Part shown: piece after piece, positions 804-59,075 of the stretch
How the letters are laid out: each line of letters opens with the position of its first letter
Numbering within the stretch: position 1 is the stretch's first letter
From: Trachythela sp. YZ-2020
Taxonomy: Eukaryota; Cnidaria; Anthozoa; Malacalcyonacea; Clavulariidae
Length of the DNA stretch: 64,000 nucleotides
Reading direction: 5' to 3'
Assembly (NCBI GenBank): GCA_016169945.1
Contig: JADLSH010000369.1
Location: 5,846,001-5,910,000, forward strand
The notes under the pieces: generated by a model
What the model saw: the letters and a program-made list of their open reading frames with translations, nothing else
Databases searched by the model: none
Told to the model about the DNA's origin: nothing
Translations under genes and position numbers: made by a program

Positions 804-3516
804 TCACATGGTTGTTGTACAGGTGTGCGACTCCTCAACGATATCTGGCACCTCTTGGATTGGAGGCTCGTTGGTCTTCTGTATGTGTCTCCTGTTACGC
901 CTGTACTCTGCGTCTCCTATCTTCACCGTGTAACTCCTGTTGGCCAGCTTTGCTGTGCAAGTTCCTGGTGTCCATTTGTCACCACCAGGTAGTTTCATGC
1001 GTACTGTCTCACCTGGGTTGATTGGCATTAGTGGTTTTGCACTCCTGTTGTAATAACGCTCCTGTCTCTGCCTCCTCATTGTCAGTGCTTTTGCCTCTGC
1101 TTCGGTATCATAACGGGGCTTCAAGAGAGTGCTGGCAATAGGCAAAAGGGTCTTGCCCCGACGACCCATTAACCGCTGAGCTGGGCTCGTGCCGACTCCC
1201 TCAGTGGGAGTGTTCCGCCAGTCTAACAATGCCAAGAACTCAGATTGACCAGACTCTTTACACTTTTTGAACAACCGTTTGACCGTTTTCACCGCATACT
1301 GAGAACTCCGTGGACGCGAACTGCGGCCCGTTATCGCTGACAAGGACGTCTGGAATCCCAAATCGTGCAAAGATTGCCTTTAGTTCTTTGATGATACTCT
1401 TTGAGGTTATGGCAGTAACGCGAGCTACTTCGACGTAATTACTATAATAGTCACAGACGACTAGTAGTGTCCGTCCATCCAGCTCGCACAGGTCAGCAGC
1501 CACTTTAGACCACGGTCTCGCTGCGAACTCGTGCTGCTGTAGAGGCTCCTTGGTTTGGGCACTTCGATATGACATACATATATCGCACTTAGTGATGTAG
1601 TCCTTTAGCTCTTTGGCCATGCGCGGCCAGAAGAGGGTATCCCGTGCTCTCCGTATGCATGCTTCTACTCCGATGTGGGAAGCATGTGATTCAGCCATCA
1701 TCTCCTTGCGAAGAGCAGCTGGTACTACAAGTTGTTGGCCCTTGAATACCAGCTCCCCTTGGACAGTGAGTTCATCTCGAATGTCATAATATGGATGCAG
1801 ACAATGGGGCAAGTCTGATTTGTTGTGTGGCCAGCCATCTTTGATCACCGATCTCAACTGTTGAAAGGCTGGATCATCTGCAGCTGCATGCACGATCTGT
1901 TGCCATCGGGCGTCACTGACCGGAAGCCATGTCTTGTGGTCAATATGCTCTAATCCGTGAACAAACTCTGATGTGCTCACCTCAGGTAGGAAAGCTCTGC
2001 TCAGCGTATCAGCTAGAAACATGTCCTTTCCCTTCTTATATTTAAGTACCAGGTTGTACTTCTGAAGTCGGAGTAGCATCCGCTGGAGTCGTTGTGGTGC
2101 CGAGTTGAGAGGTTTGAGGACAATGCTCTCTAGTGGTTTGTGGTCGGTTTCGACTGTTACCACATCTCTGCCGTAGATGTATGTATTGAATCGTTCGCAC
2201 GCGAAAACGATTGCGAGAAGCTCTTTCTCGATTTGAGCGTAACGTGTCTCTGCTGAGGTGAGCGCTCTAGATGTATAGGCTATAGGCTGGTCATTCTGTA
2301 ATAGCGCAGCCCCTAGGCCCGATTGCGATGCATCACATTGAAGTGTGACTTCATCTTCAAGGTTGTAGTAACGCAGTACCCGCGTACGAGTTACGGCATC
2401 CTTCAGTCGATCAAGCGCTCTGGCTTGCTCGTCTCCCCAATCCCATTCTACGTCTTGTTGCGTCAGTTCTCTGAGAGGTTTTGTCATGTCTGATAAGTTG
2501 GGTAGAAACTTGCTCAGGTATTGCACTAACCCAAGGAAACGCTGTACACCGGCTTTGTCTGTAGGAGCAGGCATGTCACGTATAGCTTTTACCTTAGCTG
2601 GGTCAATCCGAATACCCTCGCCGGTGGCCACGTGTCCAATGAAGGGTACTTCAGTTCGCCTCAGCTCGAGCTTATCGATGTTGAGCTTCATCCCGCGCGA
2701 CTCGCATCGCTCCAAGAAGGCTTTCAGTGTTGCATCATGATCACGTGTCGCCTCTTCGTGTGTCTGTCCATAGCCAACCACTACAAAGTCATCTGCGACC
2801 ACTTCGATATTTGACATTCCTTCAATCAGCTCGTGCATCTTTCTCTGGAAAACTTCCGGCGCCGAGCGGATACCGAAGGGCATGCGCCGCCAGCGATACC
2901 TTCCAAATGGAGTGTTGAAGGTCGTGAGGAAGGACGAGTCCTCGTCTAGCATGACATGCCAGAACCCGTTTCTCACATCAAGCTTTGTGAAGACCTTTGC
3001 GCCATGTAGTCGCGTAGCCACATCTTCGATGGTGGGAAGAGGGTAGTGTTCTCGTTGTATCGCTTTGTTCAGATCTTTGGGATCCAAACAAAGCCGTAAT
3101 TTTCCATTAGGCTTGGAAACTACTACAAGAGAACTCACCCATGGTGTTGGGGTGGTAACCGGGTAGATGATTTCCTGCTCCACCATCTTATCCAATTCTG
3201 ACTTGAGTCGATCTCGTAAGGCCACAGGCACTCGTCGGGGTGCATGTTGGACAGGATTTACCGTACTATCAACTTTGATGCGGTATTCCCCTTCAAGCTG
3301 CCCGACGTTCTCAGAAAATACCCCGGGATATCGTTCCAGGATGCTTTCTTTAGACATACTGTTGTCGTTATGGAGTGTGAAAACCGCTGACCCGTCTGTT
3401 GTGGACTTGTTGATGGCATCGTTGTCTGTATATTTGATGATATTCATGCCAATGCATGCTTTTCGCCCCAAAATAGGGCGAATGTCCTCGTTATCAACAA
3501 GTTTACAATCTAACAA
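804..3516 (-). pseudogene. Ty3/Gypsy pol: reverse transcriptase, RNase H, integrase (element A)
   Basis: The long frame (752 residues, 3516 to 1258) carries a Gypsy reverse transcriptase with LDVRNGFWHV near residue 185 and the catalytic VADD near residue 245. RNase H follows (QCDASQSGLGAAL, TDHKPL), then an integrase zinc finger (HxxxH, CDIC) and catalytic core (CDYYSNYVEV, SDNGPQF). The frame is lost near 1260-1370; a second frame (1370-804) supplies the integrase C-terminus (DWRNTP, a GETVRMKLPGG segment). This frameshift cuts the integrase, so this copy should not make an intact polyprotein. Its layout (gag-protease in one frame, pol in the next) fits the K02A2.6-like Gypsy elements common in invertebrates. 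Confidence 0.92.
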
Positions 3517-3560
3517 ACACTTCGCATTGCCCCGCCATATCCTCAGTAGTACTCTTCCAA

Positions 3561-4622
3561 CTACCGAAAGTCGGGATCCTCCGTATGCAGATATTGCTGA
3601 GTTGCCGGTGTCACATCCCTAAGCTCGGGGTCCTTGGCTGCTTTCTTGTAGAGGTGCACCGGTATGACGTTGCATTGTGCACCAGTGTCCGGCTGGAAAC
3701 GCAGGTAATTGCCAGAGTCTAGTTTGAAAGTGACCAGTTGTGAATCGTCAAGCACGGCTGCGACGTCACTAATTACATACACATCTTCATTATCCTCGTC
3801 CGAGTACTCTTCGATAGCTCTCACGCCGGTTTTCTCGGTCCTCGAATTTAGGCGTTTCTTACTTCGACACATGGCTGCAAAATGGTTACGTTTTCCACAT
3901 TCGTTGCAGGTTTTTCCGCGCGCCCTGCATTTATCCGGGTCATGCTTGCGACCGCAATTACCACATTCCTTAGTTGCCGTTGGCTCCGTGTTATTATTAT
4001 CCCATTTGTTTACACGTTGTCTGTAAGGTTTATTGTTAAAACCTACAGCGCTTACAGAATCGGTTTGGCCGACTTCTTTCATCTGGGCTGCCGTACTTTC
4101 GGACGCTCTACATATCTCGTCTGTTTTCTGTGAGGTCAACTTAGATTCCCTTAACAGTCTCTCCCTAACTTTATTGTCTCGAATTCCAAACACAATTCTG
4201 TCACGCAGGATTTCGTCAGGAGTGATGGAATTGAAATCACAGCCTTCTGCAAGCTTTCGTAGTGCCGTTTTATATTGGTCATAGCTTTCTCCCGCTTCTT
4301 GTACTCTTTGGTTAAATCGATAACGTTCGAAAGGGACATTTTTCCGAGGTTGACAATACTCAGCGAATTTCTGTAGCACTGGGGTAATTTTCGTCGAACT
4401 GCCTTCGTCTGCCCAGTCTGTAAAAGTAGAAAACACATCTCTAGCTTCCTCCCCTATGATCGTCAGAAGCGTCGCTACTTGCACCTTTTCTGCCTTTTTG
4501 TCTAGCTCCGTAGCTAGCGTGTAATTATCCCAGGCCAAACGAAACTTTTTCCATTTCTCCGCCACGTTAACGTCGTGAATTTCCAGAGCCGACGGCGGTG
4601 GCAAGTTGAATCCCGTGGCCAT
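3561..4622 (-). CDS. Ty3/Gypsy gag with zinc knuckles and aspartic protease (element A)
   Basis: A 353-residue open frame starts MATGFNLPPP and has a Gypsy capsid region (NVAEKWKKF, an FERYRFNQR segment). Two cysteine zinc knuckles follow near residues 220-255 (CGNCGRKHDPDKC, CNECGKRNHFAAMC), then the start of a retroviral-type aspartic protease with the active-site DTGA near residue 315. The frame ends just inside the protease, and pol follows in another frame, as expected for a frameshift-expressed polyprotein. A primer-binding site and a putative LTR lie just upstream. This is the most intact open frame of the element. Confidence 0.9.
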   Translation of the reverse strand: MATGFNLPPPSALEIHDVNVAEKWKKFRLAWDNYTLATELDKKAEKVQVATLLTIIGEEARDVFSTFTDWADEGSSTKITPVLQKFAEYCQPRKNVPFERYRFNQRVQEAGESYDQYKTALRKLAEGCDFNSITPDEILRDRIVFGIRDNKVRERLLRESKLTSQKTDEICRASESTAAQMKEVGQTDSVSAVGFNNKPYRQRVNKWDNNNTEPTATKECGNCGRKHDPDKCRARGKTCNECGKRNHFAAMCRSKKRLNSRTEKTGVRAIEEYSDEDNEDVYVISDVAAVLDDSQLVTFKLDSGNYLRFQPDTGAQCNVIPVHLYKKAAKDPELRDVTPATQQYLHTEDPDFR

Positions 4623-4664
4623 TTCTTTCGCTGTTCTACTGAATGTTGATCGGGTTCGTTAAAT

Positions 4665-11492: not shown

Positions 11493-13107
11493 GACGAAAG
11501 ACTTCAATCCTACTTCCAAATAGTCCGCAACGAAATGTTGATGAAGATAAAGCGGATTTCCAAGTTACCGAATTTCAGGTCTTTAAAAGCTTATCAACCT
11601 TGAACTCAAGTAAATCCATGGGACCAGATAGCATCCCTGGATGGGTCCTTAAAGAAAACGCGGATATTTTAGCACAACCCATTGTGGACATTATAAATAA
11701 ATCATACAGTGAGACCCATTATCCTGGAAGTCCGCAGATGTTGTACCAATCCCAAAGGAAAAACCAGTGCGTGACGTAAACCGTCATCTGCGACCCATTT
11801 CCCTAACCCCGATTGTGTCGAAAGTCGCCGAGGACTATGTTGTAGACTGTTTTGTCAAACCAGCTGTACTTAAAAAAGTAGATCCCAATCAGTACGGAAC
11901 GATTCCTAATTCAAGTACCGTCCATGCCCTTGTAAGCATGCTTCACTCTTGGAGCGGATCAATAGACGGAAACGGCGGATCAACTAGAGTGATGCTGTTT
12001 GACTTTAGATCGACCTGATCGACCATCACTTGTTACTTCAGAAACTAAAAACATACGATCTACCGCAATGGACAATTGATTGGATAAAAGATTTTTGACT
12101 TGCAGAAAACAGCGGGTCAAACTGAACCATGATTGTTATTCTGAATGGGAACCAGTTACAGCAGGTGTCCCCCAAGGAACAAAACTTGGCCCATGGCTAT
12201 TCACAATAACGATTAACGACTTAGTGATCCGCACATCTGATATGTGGAAGTTTGTCGACGATTCAACTTTATCGGAAGCAATCAAAAAAGGAGATATAAG
12301 TCACATTCAAAATAAAGTTGATCAATTCACTATTCAAGCAAAAATTAATAAATTCCAACTAAATGAGGGAAAATGCAAAGAACTACGTATTGGATTTAAT
12401 CGGAATGCACCGCAATTCGACCCTATCCTAATTAATAACAACCCTATCGAAGTCGTTGAATGTGTAAAGCTCCTTGGTCTCTATGTTTCCAATAACCTGA
12501 AGTGGAATAATCATATTCACGAAATCATCAAAAAAGAGCGGAAAAGACTGTTCTTCCTAAGCCAATTAAAAAAATCTAATATCGGCATCACGGAACTAGT
12601 TCAATTCTATACTGCTTGCATCCGACCAATTTTGGAGTATGCATCCCCAGTTTTCCACGACAGTCCAACCGCCTATCTATCTAACGATCTTGAAATGATA
12701 CAAAAAAGAGCTCTGAGGATAATATTCCCTTGGGTCCCATATGATGAGGCACTTAGTGTTGCTGGCCTTCAGCAATTAAGTACACGAAGACAAAGATTTA
12801 CTGATAAACGTTTCCACGAAATAGAATCTAATGATAGCCATAGATTGCATAACTTACTACCTCCTCGTAATTTGAACCATTTTAGTTTAAGAACAAAACA
12901 TAAATTTAATGTTAACTTCCAGACAGAACGACATAGGAAAACTTTTATTGTGCATAATTCATTAAAATTTTAAGATATATTTAAATGTAAAGTATTTATT
13001 ATTCTAGTACACCATGTCATAGCAGCGATCGAGGCTTATTTTTGTAATAGTTAACACAATTCAGCCCTTGGGCTGCAAAGTTAATTTTAATCCATCTATC
13101 CCCCTAT
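11493..13107 (+). pseudogene. CR1/L2-like LINE reverse transcriptase and 3' end
   Basis: The frames carry reverse transcriptase motifs in order: HLRPISLTPIVSKVAED (from 11767), AGVPQGTKLGPWLFTI (12150) and the catalytic FVDD (12255). A thumb/C-terminal region follows, with YTACIRPILEYASPVF and a helical end typical of CR1/L2. A frameshift or deletion near 12018 removes the AFDLID-type motif region. The stop is at about 12973. The 3' UTR has a small hairpin (CAGCCCTTGGGCTG) and ends in ATCTATC-like sequence near 13107, a normal tail for this clade. The upstream half is at 9316-9897. Not functional as it stands. Confidence 0.88.
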
Positions 13108-19630: not shown

Positions 19631-20090
19631 CTAAGCTGAATTGCGAAGGCCACAGCTCAACGTGACCAAGTCGAAGGCTTTCTAGGCGCATATTGCAGCC
19701 ACCTTTTGCTCGCCATCACGGAGCACAGCTACATGTACGGTAGAAGGGCCAGTTAGGGATTAAGCCTAACCCACCATGTCAACATTCCCTGTGGGAGGAA
19801 ACCGGAGTACCCGGAGAACACCCACGACTTTCGGCAGAGCGTTGACTAACTCTTTTCACGTACTATTTCAAAAACGAGTTTGAGTGTTTGGTCACGGTAT
19901 CAAAACACGAGAATGCTCATGAATGGAGCTGTCTCACGTGACGGAATGGAGCTGTCTGATTGAGTAAATTGCTAATGAATTATTAATGAGTTTGAGAAAT
20001 AGCTATCATAAGTCGTCCCCAACGGGAATCGAACCCACGATATCGAGGTGAAAGGCGCGTGCTCTGACGATTGCGCCACCGAAGCCCCAT
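19631..20090 (-). mobile_element. tRNA-headed SINE
   Basis: On the minus strand a tRNA-like head starts near 20090 with an A box (TGGCGCAATCGTCAGAGC) and a B box (GGTTCGATTCC at about 20034). The acceptor ends do not pair, so it is not a real tRNA. The body further on contains the GC-rich core CGTGGGTGTTCTCCGGGTAC followed by TCCGGTTTCCTCCCACA, a stretch I recall from conserved SINE core domains in many animals. The exact SINE superfamily is uncertain. Confidence 0.65.
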
Positions 20091-20097
20091 TATCCGA

Positions 20098-20245
20098 AAT
20101 TCACCCTTTCGATAATTCCGAACGAATACTTCCTTGGCCTGGGAGCCCCGCTCTGATGAATCAAGACGAAATTAAAGGCAGTTCGCTCAAGACTCATGAA
20201 AACGAGGCTCCCAGGCCAAGGAGGGATTTGTGACATAATTATCGT
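20098..20245. mobile_element. MITE with TTGGCCTGGGAGCC inverted repeats (copy 1)
   Basis: TTGGCCTGGGAGCCCCGCTC near 20131 faces GAGGCTCCCAGGCCAAG near 20203, with TTCGATAATTC / ATAATTATCG at the outer edges. The same family occurs at 58254-58400. Confidence 0.65.
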
Positions 20246-20322
20246 AAGGATGTATTATATTGAATTTCTCATTAAAGGACAAGAGCGACCATATTATATA
20301 TATAGCATATATATAGTCAAAT

Positions 20323-20366
20323 CTGCAGACATGCATGTTTCGCCGTTCAACGGCTCGTCAGTGCAG
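20323..20366 (-). ncRNA. Hammerhead ribozyme motif, array unit 1
   Basis: Minus strand, 5' to 3': helix I strand CTGCA; core CTGACGA; helix II GCCGTTGAACGGC (4-5 bp); GAAA; helix III CATGCATG (self-complementary, C-G closing pair); cleavage triplet GTC; helix I return TGCAG, fully complementary to CTGCA. All invariant core bases are present. The short helix III suggests activity as a dimer or with a co-folded loop. Predicted cut follows the C at 20328. Confidence 0.85.
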
Positions 20367-20603
20367 CTTGTAACGCAGTCTAGATGCGAGTGACTTCGTA
20401 TTTATACACCATACTCTTGCCCTCACCAAGCGCATGTGGTACAATACTCAGACACATGCGCATCCAGACATGCGTGAAGTGTCTTGGGGCCAGAGTGCTC
20501 AAACGACCACAAGGGAAGTGAGCTTTTGCATTATAGCTTATAGCCACCAATTAACCTCACAGAGTGCTCAACAACACAAGTGAAGGAGCATATATAGTCA
20601 AAT

Positions 20604-20647
20604 CTGCAGACATGCATGTTTCGCCGTTCAACGGCTCGTCAGTGCAG
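20604..20647 (-). ncRNA. Hammerhead ribozyme motif, array unit 2
   Basis: Identical over all 44 bases to the unit 1 motif, with core, helices and GTC triplet intact. Confidence 0.85.
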
Positions 20648-20885
20648 CTTGTAACGCAGTCTAGATGCGAGTGACTTCGTATTTAGACACCATACTCTTG
20701 CCCTCACCAAGCGCATGTGGTACAATACTCAGACACATGCGCATCCAGACATGCGTGAAGTGTCTTGGGGCCAGAGTGCTCAAACGACCACAAGGGAAGT
20801 GTGCTTTTGCATTATAGCTTATTAGCCACCAATTAACCTCACAGAGTGCTCAACAACACAAGTGAAGGAGCATATATAGTCAAAT

Positions 20886-20929
20886 CTGCAGACATGCATG
20901 TTTCGCCGTTCAACGGCTCGTCAGTGCAG
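20886..20929 (-). ncRNA. Hammerhead ribozyme motif, array unit 3
   Basis: Identical 44 bases, although the rest of this unit is decayed by small deletions. Confidence 0.85.
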
Positions 20930-21099
20930 CGTAACGCAGTCTAGATGCGAGTTTATTTAGCACCATACTCTTGCCTCAGAAGCGCATGGTACAATACTCA
21001 GACACATGCGCATCCAGACATGCGAGTGTCTTACCACAGAGACAAGCTTGCTACGACCATATATTATGCATATAAATGGTGTTAAATACTATATTATAA

Positions 21100-21283
21100 A
21101 TGCTAATTCAGATCCTGAAGTCACTTACATCTAGACTTTGAAGCTGCTGCCGATATGCCGTTCTGGGATTTGTGCTTTCACGTTGTTGAGCACTCTGAAG
21201 TTAAATTGGTGGATAAGCGATAATTCAAGCTCAAAACTTGGTCTTTCGCTCTGGACTCAAGACACTTCACGCATGTTTACGCC
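21100..21283 (+). repeat. Diverged, inverted array unit joined to the Penelope 3' end
   Basis: In the orientation opposite to the array, the segment keeps GTTGTTGAGCACTCTG, AATTGGTGG, CAAGACACTTCACGCATG and a CTAGATG(T)AAGTGACTTC-like block of the unit, but the hammerhead has been replaced by unrelated sequence. At 21283/21284 it runs straight into the 3' end of the Penelope-like element, making a chimeric junction. Confidence 0.6.
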
Positions 21284-22497
21284 CTATTTATACTTGCAAG
21301 ACTAATTATTTACATACCAATGGTCTTACATATTTTAAGTTAAAATGTTAAAAATTATATGCTAATTTGAATACTAAAAACTGACAAAAAAATAATTAAA
21401 TATTAATAGTTCTCCCTATACAACCATTCAAATGGGTATTGGCTGCAGATTGTTTTTGTATTTCTAAAGCTTCAATGCATCTACGCTCGTGTGCATTTCT
21501 AATGTTTGCATGTAAAATACTCCAGTTGATTGCAGAGTGGTCAATTGTTTCATTGTGGGTCTTCAAATGGACATACACAGTTTGTTTGTCCATTTTGATA
21601 TGCTCTTTGATTCGCGAACCTATTGTTCGACTGGTTTCCCCCAATGTACATGTATGTCATTCCACAGTGCGAACAAATTATTTGGTACACAACATTCTTG
21701 ATAAGACAACGATTTTGGTAGCTGATATACATGTCATACAATTATCTGAACAATTTTGTTTGTCTCTTGGTGGAACAAACACTCTAGACGATGGTTTACC
21801 ATTCATAAAATGTATTTTGATTTTGGTGAGTCCAGATCGACGGATGACAGCTAGTGCGCGTCGTTTGATTTGCTCGTTAATGAACGGGAGTTTCAGGTAG
21901 ATGTACCTTTGCTCATCATCTTTACGTGGTTTGTTACGTAGCGTGTATCTAATAACAGATTTTACAAATCTCTTAGGGTATCCATTGCAAACAAATAGAT
22001 CGGTTATTTTTTGTAAAGATTCCCTTTGCGATGCAATGTTGGTTGAACGGGATACAGCTCTTCTTATTTCTCCGACTAATATCGATCGCTTGAATCCAAC
22101 CGAACCATGGCTGTCCCAAGGAGTAATGCATCTACTATGGATCGGTTTTGTATACAGTTTTGTGGAAAATGTTTTGGTTGCGGGATTGAAGGACACTAGA
22201 GTATCTAAATATGGTAATTCCTTGTTGTTGTTAGGTAGTTCGATAGTAAATTTAATGGCATCATTTAAATTGTTAGACAATGTTAACAGGCGCTCTCCGG
22301 AGATTTGTCGTGATAACAACAATACAAAATAGTCATCAATAAATCTCTTGAGACGAATGTTTCCTTCTGCTTTATCGACCATCATTAGATCAAGTTCGTT
22401 CATATAAATTATAGCTAGCGAAGGGGCTAAATTTTTTCCCATTGCCAAACCCGATTTTTGTTTGTAGCCGTTACCATCTATCAAAACACTATCATTC
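21284..22497 (-). pseudogene. Penelope-like element: reverse transcriptase plus GIY-YIG endonuclease
   Basis: On the minus strand a 268-residue frame (22484-21678) holds the back half of a Penelope-type reverse transcriptase: KSGLAMGKNLAPSLAIIYMN, then the catalytic RFIDDYFVLL, then LPYLDTLV. It leads into a linker with CSDNCMTC-like cysteines. After a frameshift near 21650-21720 the GIY-YIG nuclease follows (VYQIICSHCG, IGETSRTIGSRIKEH, HLKTHNETIDHSAINWSIL, ERRCIEALEIQ). The N-terminal RT fingers are missing: the copy is 5' truncated at a GATA repeat at 22497. A ~110-bp AT-rich 3' UTR ends at 21284. Penelope elements act by target-primed copying with this nuclease. This copy is inactive. Confidence 0.9.
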
Positions 22498-22862
22498 AGA
22501 TAGATAGATAGATAGTTTAATTAATCCAAGTTACATTGCAGTTAAGACTGAATTGCGTAACTTTACAAGTAATAGATTGGTAGTGTATAATTACATAAAA
22601 ATTACCTACTATAAAAACGTTAACTTAAACTATGTACGATATGTATAAACTTCATAAAACTTCATCAACAAGCATAAGCGAAGAAGCGTTACAAAATCTT
22701 CGTTGTATGTCCATTTGAAGACCCACAATGAAACAATTGACCACTCTGCAATCAACTGGAGTATTTTACATGGAGACATTAGAAATGCACACGAGCGTAG
22801 ATGCATTGAAGCTTTAGAAATACAAAAACAATCTGCAGCCAATACCATTATGAATGGTTGTA

Positions 22863-23014
22863 CAGGGTGAGTCAGAAAAAAGTGATGCCTTTGAAATTAA
22901 ATACAATAGGGTACAATAGATTTTTTGAAAGAAAATGCAAATATGAAGTTCAATTTCAAAAGGTTCACTATTGTATTAAATTTCAAAGGCATCACTTTTT
23001 TCTGACTCACCCTG
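22863..23014. mobile_element. 152-bp TA-flanked MITE (mariner-like) with known empty site
   Basis: Ends CAGGGTGAGTCAGAAAAAAG and its complement flank a short centre, with TA on both sides. The other Penelope copy reads GGTTGTATAGGGAG at this point (near 21410-21425, reversed), exactly the site before insertion. The TA duplication and CAGGG ends fit Tc1/mariner-type MITEs. Confidence 0.88.
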
Positions 23015-23176
23015 TATAGGGAGAACTATTAATATTTAATTATTTTTTTGTCAGCTTTTAGTATTCAAATTAGCATATAATTTTTAACATTTTAACTTAA
23101 AATATGTAAGATCCATTGGTATGTAAATAATTAGTCTTGCAAGTATAAATAGGGCGTAAGCATTGTTATAAGTTAT

Positions 23177-23215
23177 TCCTACTGAAGAAGCCTTAATCGG
23201 CGAAACGTTTAGGAT
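23177..23215 (+). ncRNA. Hammerhead-like motif at the Penelope 3' end
   Basis: 5' to 3': helix I TCCTA; core CTGAAGA; an extra A; helix II GCC-TTAATC-GGC; GAAA; C-G pair with no loop; TT; helix I return TAGGA, complementary to TCCTA. This matches the very short helix III form reported for Penelope-like elements, which would need a dimer to fold. The extra A before helix II and the weak 3-bp helix II make activity uncertain. A degraded look-alike (CTGAAGAAGTTTTAATC) follows at 23246. Confidence 0.65.
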
Positions 23216-23314
23216 ATATTAAACTATCGTTTTTAATATTTTATGTCTGAAGAAGTTTTAATCTTTGTTTTATATTCATTCGTCATCCAGACATGGTGCC
23301 TTTAACTATTTCAT

Positions 23315-23446
23315 ATTATATATAGTCAAATCTGCAGACATGCATGTTTCGCCGTTCAACGGCTCGTCAGTGCAGCTTGTAACGCAGTCTAGATGCGAGT
23401 GACTTCGTATTTATACACCATACTCTTGCCCTCACCAAGCGCATAT
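23315..23446 (-). repeat. Isolated partial retrozyme-like unit with hammerhead
   Basis: From TATATATAGTCAAATCTGCAG to CCCTCACCAAGCGCAT, about half a unit identical or nearly so to the array at 20.3 kb, ending in a TA repeat. It lies just beyond the second Penelope fragment, so retrozyme units bracket the Penelope pair. Confidence 0.8.
23332..23375 (-). ncRNA. Hammerhead ribozyme motif, isolated unit
   Basis: The same 44 bases as in the array, all conserved core positions intact. Confidence 0.82.
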
Positions 23447-42931: not shown

Positions 42932-43380
42932 CTATGGTAACTCTTCGTATATAGATTCGTCAGGAACTTCGTTTCTTGGACTAGTAATCATGTTCAACGA
43001 AGCATACTGCTGAACATTTTCATTATGATCTCTATGAAGTTGCTCGTAACCTTCTACATTTAAACTTTGATAATTTTCATCAATGGGAACTCTCCTGGAA
43101 CTGTCGAGTTGTGCGTATTCTGTTGGCTCTTCGTAACAACTTTCATAATTGGGTACCTGTGGCAGTCCTCTATTTGGTTGTGTGTCACCTTCATAGGCAG
43201 CATTTTGAATGTTACCATCGTCTCGCGTGTTGTTTTTTGTTGGTATTCTTCGATAGAGAAAGCAAGCCACGATGAATATTGCTGTCACTATGACAACCAC
43301 CGCTGCCACAACGGCTCCAATAATAACCCCAGTGTTACTGTTTGATGCAGATGTTGGATTGGATGAACCTGGATCGAGAA
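42932..43380 (-). CDS. Host gene 2, last exon: transmembrane helix and YxxL-rich cytoplasmic tail
   Basis: Acceptor (TTTTTAAAAG) at 43381; phase 1 start joins the upstream Calx-beta exon in frame (DND-V-LDPGSS). A short SNPTSASNSN linker leads to a transmembrane helix (GVIIGAVVAAVVVIVTAIFI) stopped by YRR, then a ~100-residue tail to a stop at 42932. The tail has at least seven tyrosines, five in YxxL motifs: YAQL, YQSL, YEQL, YASL, YEEL. YAQL to YQSL is 11 residues apart and YEQL to YASL 10, inside the 6-12 ITAM window; SIYEEL fits the ITIM form. Such motifs are phosphorylated by Src-family kinases and bind SH2 proteins, or act as YxxPhi sorting signals. Type I receptor inferred. Confidence 0.88.
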
Positions 43381-43815
43381 CTTTTAAAAAGAAAATCATT
43401 AACATAGGCGATTTGATTTACAGGTTTATATAAATTTGTTTATGATACTGAGAAACAGCCTATGCCAAATACGGCTGGGGCAATCAATTTGAATTTCATT
43501 TAGGTTAAAAAATCTATATTTTTTATTCCGGGTTGATGTTTTAGACGTTTTTTCTAAATCCATGTTCCGGAATTCGAAATGCAGAGGCGTTGATTGCTGC
43601 TCACACAACAGAAAATAGTCGTAAACCTTACGATAAATATTCTGAGATCTAATATGATAGAAAAACAGAAGTTGTAACTAGCTAGCCAAACACTGGTAGT
43701 CTGGTACAGCCTAAGTGCATTCCTTAAATTGCAATAATAATCTAGCAATATAATGAAACATATTCATACTGCATATCAACTTTGGAAAGAATGTGTGCTG
43801 TGATTGTGTACTTAC

Positions 43816-51102: not shown

Positions 51103-51224
51103 TCAGTCAAATTCTCCTCAACATTAGATACTAGTAAAAATGTTGAGATTAGTATTAATCAAACTATTAGTAACAGAAAAAAAATGTGACAGTCAACACA
51201 GTGGTCTCAGTCTACGCAACTGAA

Positions 51225-51895
51225 AACACAGTACATGAGAGAATACATGAAAAGAAAACGGGATAGTGAGAGTTTCCAGCCCTCAACACCCAGTGCTGCA
51301 TCTAAGCAAAAGAAAATCCAGTACATGAATGAATATATGAAAAAAAACCCGGATAGTGAGAATTTCCATCCCTCAACACCCAGTGCTGCATCTAAGCAAA
51401 AGAAAAGCCAGTACATGAATGAATATATGAAACAAAAACGGGATAGTGAGAATTTCCATCCCTCAACACCCAGTGCTGCATCTAAGCAACAGCAAAGCCA
51501 GTACATGAATGAATATATGAAACAAAAACGGGATAGTGAGAGTTTCCATCCCTCAACACCCAGTGCTGCATCTAAGCAAAAGAAAAGCCAGTACATGAAT
51601 GAATATATGAAACAAAAACGGGATAGTGAGAATTTCCATCCCTCAACACCCAGTGCTGCATCTAAGCAAAAGAAAAGCCAGTACATGAATGAATATATGA
51701 AACAAAAACGGGATAGTGAGAGTTTCCATCCCTCAACACCCAGTGCTGCATCTAAGCAAAAGAAAAGCCAGTACATGAATGAATATATGAAACAAAAACG
51801 GGATAGTGAGAGTTTCCAGTCCTCAACACGGAATGCTGTATCTAAGCAAAAGAAAAAACAGTATATGAATGAATTCATGAAACAAAAACGTTCTG
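51225..51895 (+). repeat. In-frame 90-bp tandem repeat, about 7 copies
   Basis: Each 30-residue unit reads like QYMNEYMKQKRDSESFHPST followed by PSAASKQKKS. Copies are 90-95 percent alike, with the first and last most diverged. The lysine-rich helix-like half (EYMKQKRD) alternates with a Ser/Thr/Pro linker. The frame continues into the downstream zinc-binding domain. Confidence 0.95.
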
Positions 51896-52425
51896 AGAGT
51901 GAACCAGTGCAAAGTTTAATATCCAAATTTCATGATATCGTCTCACAAGGTCCTCTTTATATTTGCACTTGTTGTGACCAATTATGGTATAAGTATAGTG
52001 TCATCCCAGCTGCAACACTTAAAGAAAGTAATCCTGATGTTCAAAAGAGACTTTTAAATACAAAAAGTGTTGACAATGTTGAATGGTTGTGTAAAACATG
52101 TAATAAGCACTTAGAAAACAATAAGATGCCTCCTTGTGCTGCCATAAATGGAATGCAGTTCCCACAAAAGCCTTCATTTTTCGATTTAAATGAATTAGAA
52201 TGTAGATTGCTTGCTCCAAGACTTGCATTCCTAAAATTAATGCAGGCTCCTAGAGGCAACCAAAAATCAATGGAAACATTGTTAATGTTCCAGCAGATGT
52301 TGCTAATACTGTTAGCATGTTGCCAAGGTTACCAGATGAGATCAGCACCATTAAAGTTAACCTTAAGAGAAGATTACAATACAAAAATTCAGCTTTGTCA
52401 CTCAATATCAGACCAAACAAAGTAG
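51226..52425 (+). pseudogene. Helentron protein, repeat region plus cysteine-rich (DUF6570-like) domain
   Basis: The frame contains the 30-residue repeats, then LISKFHDIVSQGPLYICTCC and, later, VEWLCKTCNKHLENNKMPPC: paired CxxC motifs of the zinc-binding domain found before the Rep region in many Helitron proteins. NELECRLLAPRLAFLKLMQA is a hallmark of the same block. The frame is lost near 52290-52310, and the next 300 residues continue in another frame. Part of the Helentron running from 50.69 to 57.76 kb. Confidence 0.85.
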
Positions 52426-53270
52426 CAGAAGCTGTCAAATGGCTTATAAATAATGGTAACCTTTATAAAGAGGAAGGTATAAGTTTCAATGATACTTGGC
52501 TTGAAGGTAATTCAAATACTTTGGTATTTGATGATAGTGACAATGACCACATTTCAGAGGATTCAGAAAATGTAGTGGACTGTAATGCAGAAAACCTGAA
52601 CTGTGATACAGAGAGTAAGATCCAGCAAACATTAACATGTGATGATGATGATGATCACTGGAGTGAAGATGAGGCAGAAACACCTGCCGGAGTCACTGAC
52701 ACTATGTTAACAGCTCCAGATTTTGTGACTGATAATGAACGCCAGCATATTCTAAATGTTGCACCTGGTGAGGGCAATAAGCCAATGAGCATATTTAGGG
52801 ATAGATATGTAGAGGAAAAAGCATATCCTGGTATATTTCTTGGACAGAAACGACCTGACAATACAAATAGACTAACTAATGTCCATTATAGTGAAATTTG
52901 CAAATCTGAATTAAGACGGTCTGACCGAAGGGCTGCAATGTGTGTAGAAAATATTTTCTTTAAAACTAAGAAATTGCAAATGAAGATTTTGCTTGGGCAA
53001 TCACAAGTTGCGTTAAGAAAATGTCAACAAAATGGTGGCACAGTTACTGCTGGACAACTAAAACAGCCAGGTACAATAGATAACATGATTCACCATGATC
53101 AAGGATTTAAATTTCTAAGAGCTGTGAGGGGTTCACCTCCATATTTTGAAAAAGCCAAAAAGGATATATTTGCAATGATAAGGCAGTTAGGTGCTGATTC
53201 ATTATTCTGTAGTTTCTCTTCTGCAGAAACACAATGGATTCATCTACTCAGATCTACTACTAACATGTGA
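52317..53270 (+). pseudogene. Helentron Rep, N-terminal (Helitron-like N) region
   Basis: The frame continues with KVAEAVKWLINNGNLYK, an acidic stretch, then the Helitron N-terminal block GFKFLRAVRGSPPYFEKAKK and MIRQLGADSLFCSFSSAETQ. In intact Helitrons the HUH motif (of the type PHxH) follows about 60-100 residues later; here the sequence jumps from WIHLLR to the STEDQELLSTLVNRQVHRH region, so the HUH segment appears deleted at about 53255-53275. Confidence 0.85.
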
Positions 53271-55795
53271 AAAGTCAACTGAGGATCAAGAGTTACTTAG
53301 TACACTTGTAAACAGGCAGGTTCATCGTCATTCTCACACTTGTCAAAAGAAATCCAAAAGTGTATGTCGTTTTAATTACCCACAACCACCTATGCGATCA
53401 ACCAAAATTCTACACTCATTAGATATTGATATGAATGATAATGAACTTGAACAACATAAAGATACTTGGAAGTTTATAAAGAAAAATCTCAATGATATGA
53501 AAGAGGGTGACGACATTACATTTGACCAATTGTTGGTTAATCTTAAACTGACAGAACAACAATATTTGTTAGCTGTTCGATCCAGCCTCAAGGCACCAAC
53601 TATATTCTTAAAAAGAAAACCAAATGAATTAAGGATCAATAATTATAATTCTGCATGTCTTAGCGCATGGCGTGCAAATATGGACATTCAATTTGTACTC
53701 GATCAGGGGCGGATCGAGGATTTTTCGTACGTTAGTCAAAATTTTCGTTGGTACACAACCGGGGGGGGATAATTTTTTCGGGGGGGGGTCGAGGGAAATT
53801 GCTAAATTTTCGCACCAGTCCCAGTCAACCCTTTACCCCCTCCCCCCGCCACTTAACATACACAGAGCTGTACAAGCAATTCCCAGTAGCAGCAGATCTA
53901 ATAAACAAACTATTAAATCGAGTTAAATATTAATCTCCATTTCAAATATTTATAGTTTACACAATAACACAAACTACTGTACATGATATCAGTATTAAAA
54001 CGTGTTTTAAGAGTAAAGGATAAAATGTTCTGGTCCTGGGAAGCCAATTAGCCAAAGGCTATTTCAGAATAGGACCAATTTGCTGCCTATAGCTATATTC
54101 TATTTTTAACAAACACAATTTTACATCACATCTGAGATCGTATTAAACCATCACCATGCCATGCGGTCCAACACACATCAAGAAAAAATACGTCATATTT
54201 ATATAAGAATATTTTCGTTCGGTTGAAGACTTGAAGTCGATAATATATATCCAAACCTTAGGCGATTAATATCAAGCAACAAAAACATAAACAAAATGCC
54301 TTAATGCCTATATTTTATACAGTTCGCCCAATCGGCTGGGTTTCGACCGCAGTAATATGCAAAAATTGCAAATTTCATAAACATAGCCAGCGAGTGATCG
54401 CCTCACGCGCACAGATTGCTCTGTAAATACAAGTCGAAAATCATCACAATAAATGTAGTTAAAATAGAATATATTTGCATTAGGGCCGTAGCCGTACAAG
54501 ACTTGTTTCTTTCCCGAACATAATTCGGAATGTACGATTCGGCACTAAAATTTCGGCCCAAGCAGAAGCTTGTGTTGTTGATAGCGCTCAACAGCTCTTG
54601 GACAGAAGTCTTCGGCGAAGCGTCGATTCGCTTGTCAGATCAGCTTGAATTTTCACCAGACATTGTTCATCGTTGTTCTCAAACATGGCCTGAACGGTCT
54701 CGTAAATACTACGAGACATTGCAGTATATTCGTATTATATTTTCCGAGCTACTTCGATTAAACCTTTGCGGTCAAAGCTGCGATCAGAAAGGTCATAGAA
54801 TCATGCCGTATAAACTGAAGCCTGATGCATCTGATCGGTCAGAAAAATCTAGCCAATGGGAATTCAGATTTTTTTTCAATTTAGCCAATCGGATACCTTG
54901 TATACTAGCCCCTGATCGCTGAACTCCCCGCAGAACGCGCAAAAAGCAAATTGGCCAATCAGATAGCTGGAATCTGCCTTTAGAGCGAGCAAAACTCACG
55001 CGCTAGACCGCTTTTCTGCGCGTTATGTATCGAAGGCCTGGCCGCTGCATGAAACTTGATAACTTGACTACGAACTTTGAATATAAGCCACTGCATGAAA
55101 TATGATAACTGGACTGTTGGTTGAATAATTAATTGCGCAATTGCAAATTTTACGTTAGTCGCGTGATCGCTCTGATCACCCCTAGATCCGCCCCTGTACT
55201 CGATGTATATGCATGTGCAATGTACATTGTATCATATATATCCAAAGCCCAGAAAGGCATGAGTGAGCTATTGAGAACTGCTTGTGAAGAAGCAAGGAGA
55301 GGAAACTCCAGTATTAAGCAACAAGTGAGAGATATTGGAAATAAGTTTTTAAACAATGTTGAAATAAGTGCACAAGAAGCAGTCTACATAGTACTGCAAC
55401 TTCCAATGAGGAAATCTTCTGGTCAAGAAGTATTTATAAACACTTCACCCCCTGAGAATAGAGTTCAGTTACTAAAACCAATGCGAGAAATCAATGATAT
55501 GGAAGATGATTCTGATGAAGTCTATGCATCTGGTTTAATAAAGCGTTACACAAAACGACCAGCCAAACATGAAAATTTGTCAATTGCTGATTGGGCTGCA
55601 TGGTATGACTCTTGTTGTAAGCCATATATCAAACCATCCCGTGAACTAGACATTGATAACTATCCACTTGAGACAAATTTTGATGATAATCATGATGATG
55701 ATGATAATGAGGAACAAAAAAGTGAACAAAAGAATAAAAAAAGAAGTAAAGCCAGAATTATCCGAAATGTCTGTTTTAACAAGGAAGGTTGATTC
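53271..55795 (+). pseudogene. Helentron Rep, C-terminal part with YxxxY motif, split by a hAT element
   Basis: The first piece (to 53703) has a Cys/His cluster (RHSHTCQKKSKSVCRFNYPQ) and ends NMDIQFVLD. After the hAT insertion (53704-55196) it resumes ..VYACAMYIVSYISKAQKGMS with the paired tyrosines Y-I-V-S-Y expected of the Helitron nicking site, and goes on to 55795 (SGLIKRYTKRP, ADWAAWYDSCC). A stop and frame change follow. The Rep nicks and joins single strands in rolling-circle transposition; without HUH and with breaks this copy is inactive. Confidence 0.85.
53704..55196. mobile_element. 1.49-kb hAT-type element with TACTCGAT duplication
   Basis: TIRs CAGGGGCGGATCGAGGA and its partner TAGATCCGCCCCTG; exact 8-bp TACTCGAT at 53696-53703 and 55197-55204. 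Removing it reconnects the Rep frame. A 130-codon frame at 54530-54922 has no transposase motif, so it is taken as non-autonomous. Confidence 0.92.
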
Positions 55796-56275
55796 TGAGA
55801 AACATTACCGTGAACTAATCATGTTATTTAGCCTCCATCGCCTTAAAATTGGCGGGCAGAAATTATTTGCTGGAAAAAAAAATAGTATGCCTGCGGAGGA
55901 GGCTACATGTTATTCACATCATGGAGAAATGAAACAACCGACTTAATAAAAAATTGTTCTTCTTACCAAGAGCACTATTTACAAGTTAAAAACACAATAG
56001 ATGAGCAAATGAAACAGTATGCTATTTGTAGTGAAGACCTGAATGATATCCACGAACGATTTAATAATATAGAAGATAATCATGATAACTATGACCTTAT
56101 TGTCCCTGGAACACAAAATATTGAGCGTGAAGATGAATCTGAAGGTACCCAAGACCTTCATCCAGAATTGAATGCAAACTATGACCTATCTGGTGATCTT
56201 GGAATTCCTTCAACTGCATCAAATACTGAACAGCTAATATTACATGAAGAACAGGATAATGTTTACAGAGGATAA
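55796..56275 (+). pseudogene. Helentron region between Rep and helicase
   Basis: Frames with HYRELIMLFSLHRLKIGGQK, then ATCYSHHGEMKQ, then an acidic stretch (NIEDNHDNYDLIVPGT). Typical connector with 'RELxxLFxPWR'-like segment; broken by a shift near 55930. Confidence 0.65.
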
Positions 56276-56311
56276 AAACTAAACAAAGAACAAAAATAAT
56301 TTTTCTATCAT

Positions 56312-57235
56312 GTGTTACATCTTATTAAAACTGCTGAGAGTCCATTCTACTGTTTTCTCAGTGGAGGAGCTGGAGTTGGCAAATCGCATCTCACTAAGTC
56401 TCTTTATCAAGCAGCATTGAAGTATTACAATACAAGAGCAGGTGATGATTTCCATCAAGTAAAAATATTAATGCTTGCAGCAACTGGCAAAGCAGCTTTC
56501 AATATTAAAGGTAACACAATTCATAGTGCACTTGCAATACCAGCATGTCAGCCCTTAAAGAACTACAAACCACTAGATTCGAGCAGGCTAAACACTTTAA
56601 GATGTCAGCTTGGTGGTTTAAAACTAATATTTTTGGATGAGATCTCAATGGTCGGTAGTACAATGTTTAATGTTCAAATAAATAATAGACTGAAAGATAT
56701 CAAAGGAAGTAAAGACGACTTTGGCGGTGTAAGCATAGTTGCAATTGGCGATCTATTTCAACTAGAACCTGTAATGGATAGGTATATATTTAAGAATCTA
56801 GACAATTCAGAATATGCAGTTCTTGCTCCCAATAAATGGCAAGATTACGTCTGGTATAATATGGGTACAGTTTGACCATTCAGATGTTGGTGAGAAAACC
56901 AGACATGAAAATAGAAATCTTTATGTTCAAGGTATTGAGTCAACATGGACTCCAATAAAACCAATTACTACTCAGTTTGTTGTTGGCAGGAACCAAACTG
57001 CACAAGTTGTAAGAAAACAGTTTGCACTGAGGCCTGCTGCAGCTAAGACAATTCGTCGTTCACAAGGTGACACTGAACAAAAAATTGTTGTCAATTTTAA
57101 TAAATTGTTGTCAATTTTAATACAAGAAGAGCCATACCTCATATACATTATGTTGGTTTGAGCAGGGTAACAAAAATTGAAGGATTATATATCACTGACC
57201 TTTGTGAAGAAAAGAAAGCTGTCAATCCTCATGTT
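56312..57235 (+). pseudogene. Helentron Pif1-like helicase, internally deleted
   Basis: The first part (56312-56875) has Walker A GGAGVGKS, ATGKAAFNIKGNTIHSAL, Walker B LIFLDEISMVG and motif III AIGDLFQLEPV of the Pif1/RecD family. After NMGTV the frame breaks and central motifs are missing. The C-terminal motifs resume near 57030 (AAAKTIRRSQGDT) and 57150 (YVGLSRVTKIEGLYITDL) in shifted frames. An 18-base duplication (AATAAATTGTTGTCAATTTT, at about 57080-57120) marks one break. The helicase would unwind DNA in rolling-circle transposition. Confidence 0.88.
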
Positions 57236-57764: not shown

Positions 57765-59075
57765 CATTTCTGATATTTATAAAAAAATAATCATTTAAAC
57801 ATCAATCTCTTATTCTTTACAAGTTACTGATTGAATGAAGTGTATTTTGTTTGTACAAAATATGTATAACTTATACACTTTACGGCCAAAGTAGAATTTG
57901 TAGAATATTACTCCTTTGGCAACAGTGGGATCACCATGAGCAGATACATGCACGCTTAGCGTACCTATTTTTATTGGTTGCAATCAATTTTCCAGTTGGT
58001 TTAAATTATCATTAGCCGGACATGGCAATTAAAATTTCGACCAAATATGTTTTTGTTGTTTTGATCAATTAATTATATTCTTTTGTTAAAACGACCAAAT
58101 ATACACATGATTGAATGGACTCTATGACGGAGACCAAAAATTACTATTTTACACTGCTGAATAGAACAAGCAATACACTATAATTTCTCGTAGGATCCTA
58201 CATCGTCCTACATGTGGATCGAATTCCAAGCATTGAGCATCGGGAATCCCATTCAATAGACTCTTTCGATAAATAAGTCATTTGGCCTGGGAGCCTCACT
58301 CCCACGAACAGTGGGCCAATCACGTTTCGTCTTGATGCACGAAAGCGAGGTTCCCAGGCCAAATAGGCGGATGTGACGTAATTATCGAAAGAGTCTATTG
58401 GTCAGGGCGTTAAGGTATATTTACACTTCTGCAATTTGTCGGGTCGAATTCAGGTTTTTCGATTGTTAATGACGAATCGTTTCAGTCTAAAGTTTCTTCA
58501 GATTTTGTTTACCTCATATTTAAAAAAAATGGACCAGTCAATTCGCAGTGTATAGGTATAGCTTATAGTGTGATCAACCGCGCGTTAAACCAGAGACCTT
58601 GGGTTCGATTCCAGGCTGGGACATTCTGAAACCAATTTTCAGGCAGTGTTTCGACTCAATTTGAACACCCCATACCCCAATGAAATTATTGTGCTTAAAT
58701 TTGTTTAGTGGCTCATTTATCCTGATAATATGCGAATTGTGCAACAAAATTAGAACACATGATATGCAAGTTTTATCCGCGAATTTATGCTCAACGCTAT
58801 CTCGTCCGTTAATCATGGACAAAACTGTCGAAAGCACATGCATGCATGCATGTGTAAGGATATTTACACTTCTATCTTAATTAGACTTCAATTAACCATT
58901 GCATTAAAGAATTACAGGCTAGTACCGGCCATCTACCCCCCTCCCCGCATGCCCCCCTATTAAATGTGGGACAGACCTAAATGGTGCTGCCTCATCCTTA
59001 GAAAAAGGACAGGGTAAAGATTTGGTTGTTTCGAATCATATTGCTACTATATTTTGTTCCTGACTGCTGTTTCAC
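57765..59075. other. Gene 2 intron sequence; one MITE and a tRNA-like scrap
   Basis: Contains the MITE at 58254-58400 and a B-box-bearing tRNA-like stretch at about 58560-58625 (GGGTTCGATTCC). Otherwise nothing supportable. Confidence 0.5.
58254..58400. mobile_element. 147-bp MITE with CAATAGACTCTTTCGATAA ends (copy 2)
   Basis: Both ends are complementary (CAATAGACTC / GAGTCTATTG) and enclose the TTTGGCCTGGGAGCC inverted repeats shared with 20098-20245. Confidence 0.85.

Follow-up and report, generated by a model that had tools for sequence, protein, structure and literature searches.

A putative non-LTR retrozyme family at TA-rich sites in the octocoral Trachythela sp., with a Penelope-like element as candidate mobilizer

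The window analyzed here, a stretch of 64,000 nucleotides, contains on its minus strand an array of ~281-bp hammerhead-bearing units, which we interpret with a probability of roughly 85% as a non-autonomous metazoan non-LTR retrozyme that spread by lap-wise reverse transcription into (TA)n, the enzyme likely being that of a Penelope-like element (PLE). Behind this reading stand the motif itself, the units, their copy number, 3' ends that are fixed in position and bordered by TA, truncated copies, and PLE ends lying in or near TA runs. Judged by its sequence, the element represents a new family among the metazoan non-LTR retrozymes, a known kind, and displays most of the sequence-level features examined for that kind; a literature search combining "hammerhead ribozyme" with "octocoral" found no report of an octocoral retrozyme. 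It is a natural case of settling in TA microsatellites. PLEs are a candidate source of the enzyme that mobilizes animal retrozymes, and a young, abundant retrozyme together with a PLE family whose 3' ends often lie at TA runs, and at times adjoin the retrozyme directly, makes the PLE idea testable.

Tandem units with type I hammerheads

The array, its ribozyme motifs and related copies in the window are as follows:

20304..21043, minus strand: retrozyme array of ~281-bp units head to tail, 2.6 copies, with its 3' end on the low-coordinate side in TA-rich DNA
20323..20366, minus strand: type I hammerhead of unit 1 (structural scan), predicted cleavage at 20328/20327
20604..20647, minus strand: type I hammerhead of unit 2, identical to that of unit 1
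20886..20929, minus strand: type I hammerhead of unit 3, identical to that of unit 1
23332..23375, minus strand: type I hammerhead of the fourth copy, identical to that of unit 1
23317..23444, minus strand: fourth retrozyme copy, comprising 128 bp of the 3' part and matching unit 1 exactly
21117..21276, plus strand: older degraded retrozyme piece, inverted (alignment score 149 vs a maximum of 49 in 200 shuffles)
20286..20311, no strand: probable, imperfect target-site duplication, low side (CGACCATAT plus TA-rich sequence)
21054..21074, no strand: probable, imperfect target-site duplication, high side

Tandem Repeats Finder reported a period of 281 with 2.6 copies at 20309-21024, and the units measure 281 to 282 bp, which bears out the ~281-bp tandem array of minus-strand units claimed in the first-pass annotation. 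That annotation had also claimed an identical 44-nt hammerhead with an intact core in three units, and this held as well: the motif (CTGCA-CTGACGA-GCCG-TTGAA-CGGC-GAAA-CATGCATG-TC-TGCAG, minus strand) occurs four times in the window, and a structural scan for the core and helices I to III gave four matches vs none in 100 Markov-1 simulated windows. A looser pattern likewise matched four times vs none in 100 shuffles, and a fuzzy scan tolerating three mismatches matched everywhere and did not discriminate. Helix I (CTGCA/TGCAG) is the open helix, which makes the hammerhead type I; helix II is GCCG/CGGC, and helix III, ACA/TGT, is capped by the palindromic loop TGCA. The predicted cut follows GTC, at 20328/20327, and the site proposed earlier agrees with the motif. 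The covariance-model check proposed at the same time gave no confirmation: in the Rfam search of the window no family reached its gathering score, the best for the array being HH9 with 23 bits against a cut-off of 52 (search space, 1101 bases; E = 0.0054). Folded alone, the 44 nt reach their energy minimum in another pairing (-11.6 vs -8.2 kcal/mol for the hammerhead, a gap of 3.4 kcal/mol). Given the weak Rfam match and this other fold, cleavage by the hammerhead as a monomer is no more than plausible by rule.

The unit has a GC content of 47% and no recognizable coding, the longest stop-free stretch in the doubled unit being 69 codons, and no LTR or other repeat besides the unit itself was seen by Tandem Repeats Finder on the window or in array maps of the fetched stretches. 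Folded as circles, units 1 and 2 gave moderate z scores of -2.98 and -1.9, respectively, vs 100 shuffles each, with ~61% of bases paired. The string TATAAATA lies upstream of the unit 1 ribozyme and is altered in unit 2; a promoter claim for it was dropped, since such strings are common, numbering 88 and 100 on the two strands of the window.

The three units inventoried earlier were confirmed, and the fourth copy, the older inverted copy, the adjoining PLE and the TA target are additions to that inventory. Unit 3 (20872-21041) is 5'-truncated and degraded. The 3' end of the fourth copy lies inside a short TA stretch at the 3' end of the PLE, 3' end to 3' end. The older piece spans a unit junction, being permuted relative to the array, has lost the hammerhead core and is joined to the PLE tail; many gaps mark its alignment. 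The two flanking stretches listed as a duplication pair reached a local score of 23 vs 13.9 ± 2.5 in a set of 2000 random pairs matched for AT content (P = 0.0045).

Genome-wide abundance and the 3' junction

In the window's own assembly (578 Mb, 396 contigs), exact copies of the 34-nt core number 3410 (1687 + 1723) and those of its reversed control 0, which supplies the genome-wide count that had been suggested. The core pattern had no match in the collections viral_contigs and genome_contigs, which says little because these hold viruses and prokaryotes. We then describe arrays from 40 stretches (L009-L048) that were the best matches to a three-unit query, a choice biased to long, young arrays; L014 and L048 are one region, the overlap being removed from L048, and L036 and L037, apparent duplicates by their flanks, were counted separately. 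Together with the window these stretches hold 68 arrays, 65 of them uncut by a stretch edge (the window's three included, duplicates kept), with 1 to 17 BLAST unit pieces per array. Among the 208 full units of the 40 stretches, 171 keep the 44 nt unchanged.

The arrays share one end. Their 3' ends fall at unit positions 275 to 281 in 53/65 and at exactly 278 in 44/65, and their 5' starts are scattered. The 3' end, TTTGACTAT, mostly continues into (TA)n, and AT content downstream of it is 0.95 in the first 10 nt vs 0.67 at 20 to 60 nt (n = 50). Across the genome, there are 1779 places at which the exact unit 3' end leads into a TA run of 14 letters or more (control, 0). In a sample taken in contig order (L049-L056 and L057-L076, identical copies such as L073 and L070 collapsed), which comprised 27 distinct copies, five of them internal, a TA run of at least 12 followed 18 of the 22 distinct terminal copies, vs 34 of 20000 random 62-mers of the window. 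The term "retrozyme-like" used in the first-pass annotation thus gains from the genome, which gives 3410 exact cores vs 0 reversed, a uniform unit length, no long open frame, 47% GC, and fixed 3' with variable 5' ends.

TA also occurs on the other side of the arrays. For this comparison 41 arrays were used, a set excluding seven that start at unit positions 1 to 3 as well as arrays with other 3' ends, with identity below 95%, cut by a stretch edge, or from the window. A TA run of at least 9 adjoins the 3' side in 33/41, the 5' side in 17/41 and both in 13/41 (8/41 lack it at the 3' side and 24/41 at the 5' side), vs 3/41 on either side at a distance of 100 bp; these counts argue that TA is at least partly target, beyond a mere tail, and part of the (TA)n at the 3' end may still be a tail made by the enzyme. 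One array (L038) sits in (CTAT)n, and its junction matches that repeat. Seven stretches (L011, L018, L040, L049, L054, L057, L074) show arrays meeting 3' end to 3' end over one TA run, as is expected if a self-complementary target is struck repeatedly. Family-wide, the flanks of the same array scored a mean of 21.0 vs 19.9 for mismatched flanks, with 3/50 arrays at or above the 95th percentile; at the level of the family, TA runs mask target-site duplications.

These ends bear on the reading of the array as an ordinary satellite, in which unequal crossing-over and gene conversion spread the units and the hammerhead is a passenger. Such a satellite would account for tandem units, for likeness greater within than between arrays, and for as many as 17 unit pieces in one array. 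Against it stand several marks of retro-insertion: the copies are dispersed over thousands of places, mostly share one 3' end and a TA junction, are truncated at scattered 5' positions, and include single units that are 5'-truncated. We regard it as very unlikely.

Variation among units

Units of the same array differ by 3.40 changes on average (614 pairs) vs 5.74 for units of different loci (20816 pairs). In 26 of the 28 arrays with at least three full units, the one strong subfamily marker has the same state throughout, and four one-base deletions and one substitution (each in at least six arrays) are mixed within 5 to 13 of these 28. The greater likeness within arrays therefore fits one monomer copied repeatedly, by preference a circle; in view of the one-base changes mixed within arrays, multimeric linear RNA, or later homogenization and unequal crossing-over, could also be the source of the arrays. 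In the window, units 1 and 2 differ at the marker, which counts against a single circle there.

Two earlier proposals concerned the ribozyme itself. The first, that the decay of unit 3 spares the motif, was correct as an observation: unit 3 differs from unit 1 by 9 deletions, 1 insertion and 3 substitutions, and none of these 13 events falls within the 44 nt. As a qualification, P is 0.027 if the events are placed uniformly, and the same events also miss the 44 nt in 17 of 182 rotations. Small deletions dominate the changes in this unit. The second proposal was that the identity of the copies reflects constraint or recent spread. Among the 208 full units, the hammerhead has 1.34 distinct changes per site and the remainder of the unit 1.62 (Mann-Whitney P = 0.50), and constraint on the ribozyme was accordingly not supported as the cause of copy identity; the older copy at 21117-21276 is without the core. 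In raw terms the hammerhead changes about one-third less often (substitutions, 0.0044 vs 0.0064 in the rest; deletions, 0.0024 vs 0.0039), and 22 of 226 sliding 44-nt windows are as low as the hammerhead or lower. Weak constraint may act on the hammerhead, the 3' half of which looks quieter. Recent spread was upheld: the median divergence from unit 1 of the window is 0.7%, and since the hammerhead's rate is not distinguishable from that of the rest, recent spread is enough to explain the identity of the hammerheads.

Other hammerheads and repeats

A second abundant hammerhead repeat was noticed at L010:4809 (+), with a variant at L046:1700 (+); its core, CTGATGATTCTTTTACAGATGAAACAGCCTGTT, has 2113 exact occurrences in the genome (control, 0). 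Paired by hand, it has helix I CTGC/GCAG and a U-U mismatch at the base of helix II, and a 32-nt string of it is present in array flanks at 17/40 stretches. For L010:4560-5260, where the structural scan detects a hammerhead, Rfam listed 67 matches, none of them to a hammerhead model and most to TA-rich microRNA-type models. At L049:875, L045:4083, L009:4251 and L076:60 the fetched flanks held additional type I hammerhead-like cores, each present once to a few times and many with GTA as their last bases, which suggests several hammerhead families in the genome.

Other elements of the window were observed in passing. Positions 20012-20260 (-) hold a stretch that by eye resembles tRNA-Glu and adjoins an imperfect inverted repeat, parts of which recur at 58325-58399; ARAGORN calls no tRNA, and the stretch is perhaps a SINE-type or MITE-type repeat. 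A Ty3/gypsy-type element occupies 1258-4658 (-), its frame at 1258-3618 being 96% identical over 98% of its length to the database protein P0066. Open frames at 51190-56875 (+) begin with a 30-residue tandem repeat, and those after it resemble a Helitron helicase. Few named relatives were found for the open frame at 42932-43417; they include Paramuricea clavata and Dendronephthya gigantea, in keeping with an octocoral host.

The neighboring Penelope-like element

Next to the array lie pieces of a PLE:

21678..22520, minus strand: PLE reverse transcriptase (RT) piece, 5'-truncated, a neighbor outside the retrozyme
21396..21656, minus strand: PLE GIY-YIG endonuclease piece, in frame with the RT piece, with in-frame stops between
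22658..22870, plus strand: inverted endonuclease fragment of the same PLE
23013..23312, plus strand: PLE 3' tail, ending in GGTGCCTTTAACTATTTC (23295-23312) and followed by a short TA-rich stretch
23176..23215, plus strand: minimal PLE-type hammerhead-like motif (Hammerhead_1, 12.1 bits, E = 6.4, cut-off 34)

The RT piece is 64% identical over 255 residues to P0002, which has RVT_1 and GIY-YIG domains; Montipora and Dendronephthya are among its relatives, and no confirmed relative was found in viral_contigs or genome_contigs (viruses, prokaryotes). The motif at 23176-23215, paired by hand, has helix I TCCTA/TAGGA and one unpaired A ahead of helix II, and its core string CTGAAGAAGCC is present in 5/5 PLE tails read. 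By eye, a small element bounded by long terminal inverted repeats (TACAGGGTGAGTCAG...) sits at 22866-23019 inside the inverted endonuclease fragment. Hammerheads of PLEs were reportedly treated by Cervera and de la Pena in 2014, and a PLE paper of 2021 is said to describe microsatellite-targeted PLEs.

With RT and GIY-YIG pieces beside the array on the same strand, its units could be taken for the pseudo-LTR of the adjoining PLE and the array for part of an autonomous element, the more so as type I hammerheads in tandem pseudo-LTRs are known for PLEs from the portion of PMC7761336 considered. A tblastn search with the window PLE and four relatives (E, 1e-3) gave no PLE match in any of the 40 other array stretches (L009-L048, flanks of ~2 kb), which argues that the array is no PLE end. 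The PLE has a 3' tail of its own, which differs in sequence and carries a separate minimal hammerhead-like motif, and its exact ends number 13 compared with 3410 ribozyme cores. A pseudo-LTR is therefore highly improbable for the array, and for the fetched stretches this identity was rejected, with 0/40 containing a PLE and PLE tails ending in other sequence.

What the two elements often do have in common is the kind of site. Four close PLE copies (RT piece 98, 96, 92 and 91% identical) terminate at a TA run. The exact 18-nt PLE end occurs 13 times in the genome, two of these ends belonging to copies outside those four (C243 and C62), and ATA is next in 13/13. A TA run of at least 12 lies within the next 40 nt in 7/13 and a shorter one (3 to 10) in 6/13. 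Retrozyme sequence is found within 25 nt of the PLE end in 6/13 (five without a duplicate, L085 and L086 being 97% identical over 452 columns; the window is one of the six) and within 400 nt in 8/13. The 6/13 is a modest excess over the share of TA runs that may hold a retrozyme in general, roughly one in ten by an estimate from the density in one window (two TA runs of at least 12 per 64 kb).

The joins themselves vary. The PLE end abuts unit position 51 directly, without intervening TA, in L084; in L080 it is followed by ~15 nt and then unit position 50, and in L085/L086 by 5 nt and then unit position 36; in L083 a 30-nt retrozyme stub lies 20 nt past it. All of these, and L079 with a shorter PLE end, join in the same sense; the junction in the window is antisense, and of the farther pairs L088 is sense and L089 antisense. 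From these sequences we read a shared target for the PLE and the retrozyme and probably a shared enzyme, and the PLE family may be regarded as a candidate mobilizer. A more specific proposal is that the GIY-YIG PLE enzyme moves the retrozyme by starting at (TA)n on circular retrozyme RNA and copying the circles lap by lap, and sometimes jumps from this template to its own RNA, which would yield PLE-retrozyme chimeras; we hold it tentatively, at somewhat below even odds. Under this proposal the same-sense joins of PLE 3' ends to 5'-truncated retrozymes within ~0 to 20 nt (L080, L083, L084, L085/L086 and L079) are possibly records of template jumps. Successive insertion into one TA run is another possible source of such joins.

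It may also be that some other enzyme, e.g., a LINE-type RT, moves the retrozyme and that PLEs share TA-rich sites as easy targets. The window has a further RT-like open frame at 12080-12973 (LINE-like by eye), the second hammerhead repeat also sits in TA runs, and with about a tenth of TA runs possibly holding a retrozyme the excess at PLE ends is modest. One PLE protein, however, is known to cut AT-rich DNA and to start reverse transcription inside its template (PMC11167929), 7/13 PLE ends lie in the same site type, and some are joined directly to the retrozyme, so we consider another enzyme possible and rather unlikely.

DISCUSSION

For the non-autonomous retrozyme that we favor, the following cycle is proposed: (i) read-through transcription of an array would give multimeric RNA; (ii) each type I hammerhead would cut once per ~281 nt; (iii) a host ligase would close the monomers into circles, as reported for other animals; (iv) at a DNA break within a (TA)n microsatellite, a reverse transcriptase would start copying at the UAUAUAU stretch just downstream of the ribozyme; (v) one or more laps round the circle would leave a tandem array with its 3' end fixed in (TA)n and a variable 5' truncation; and (vi) the enzyme would most likely come from a GIY-YIG PLE of the same genome, many copies of which end in the same site type. 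Cleavage, circles, lap-wise copying and the PLE as supplier of the enzyme are what we infer here. A purified PLE protein, that of Anolis, has been described as cutting AT-rich DNA and beginning reverse transcription within its template (PMC11167929).

Animal retrozymes are defined, in the portion of PMC7229834 used here, by type I hammerheads and short, low-GC tandem units without LTRs; coral, mussel and axolotl were studied and jellyfish and anemones are also named, and PLEs are proposed as their movers, as a strong candidate on circumstantial grounds. Animal retrozymes further range from dimers to large multimers and are expressed as self-cleaving RNA of unit length, linear and circular, with highly self-paired circles. 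The GC content of these elements is given there as <50% in the text and <45% in the legend of Figure 1, and the 47% found here is below the first value and above the second. Like the metazoan non-LTR retrozymes of Acropora millepora, Mytilus galloprovincialis and axolotl, as that portion presents them, the element has a type I hammerhead in non-coding tandem units within the 150- to 450-bp range and with GC <50%, co-exists with PLEs, and has a short helix III with a palindromic tetraloop. It differs in unit sequence and in unit length (281 vs 220 to 240 bp in Acropora), and its prevailing (TA)n 3' junction and direct junctions with PLE 3' ends are features that the same portion of PMC7229834 does not describe for metazoan retrozymes.

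The hammerheads of PLEs and Terminons, as far as PMC7761336 was drawn on, are likewise type I and in tandem, and an AT-rich target is shared with PLEs (PMC11167929). Those hammerheads, in contrast, are minimal, without helix III or loop-loop contacts, and lie inside RT-bearing elements, whereas the retrozyme described here has helix III and its unit encodes nothing recognizable. The plant LTR retrozymes, in the passages of PMC7761336 and PMC7229834 used here, are similar in being non-autonomous tandem hammerhead elements thought to move via circular RNA; they differ in their type III hammerheads, their size of ~700 bp, and their LTRs of ~350 bp with a primer binding site and polypurine tract, and they make 4-bp target-site duplications, whereas those of animal retrozymes, when present, exceed 4 bp.
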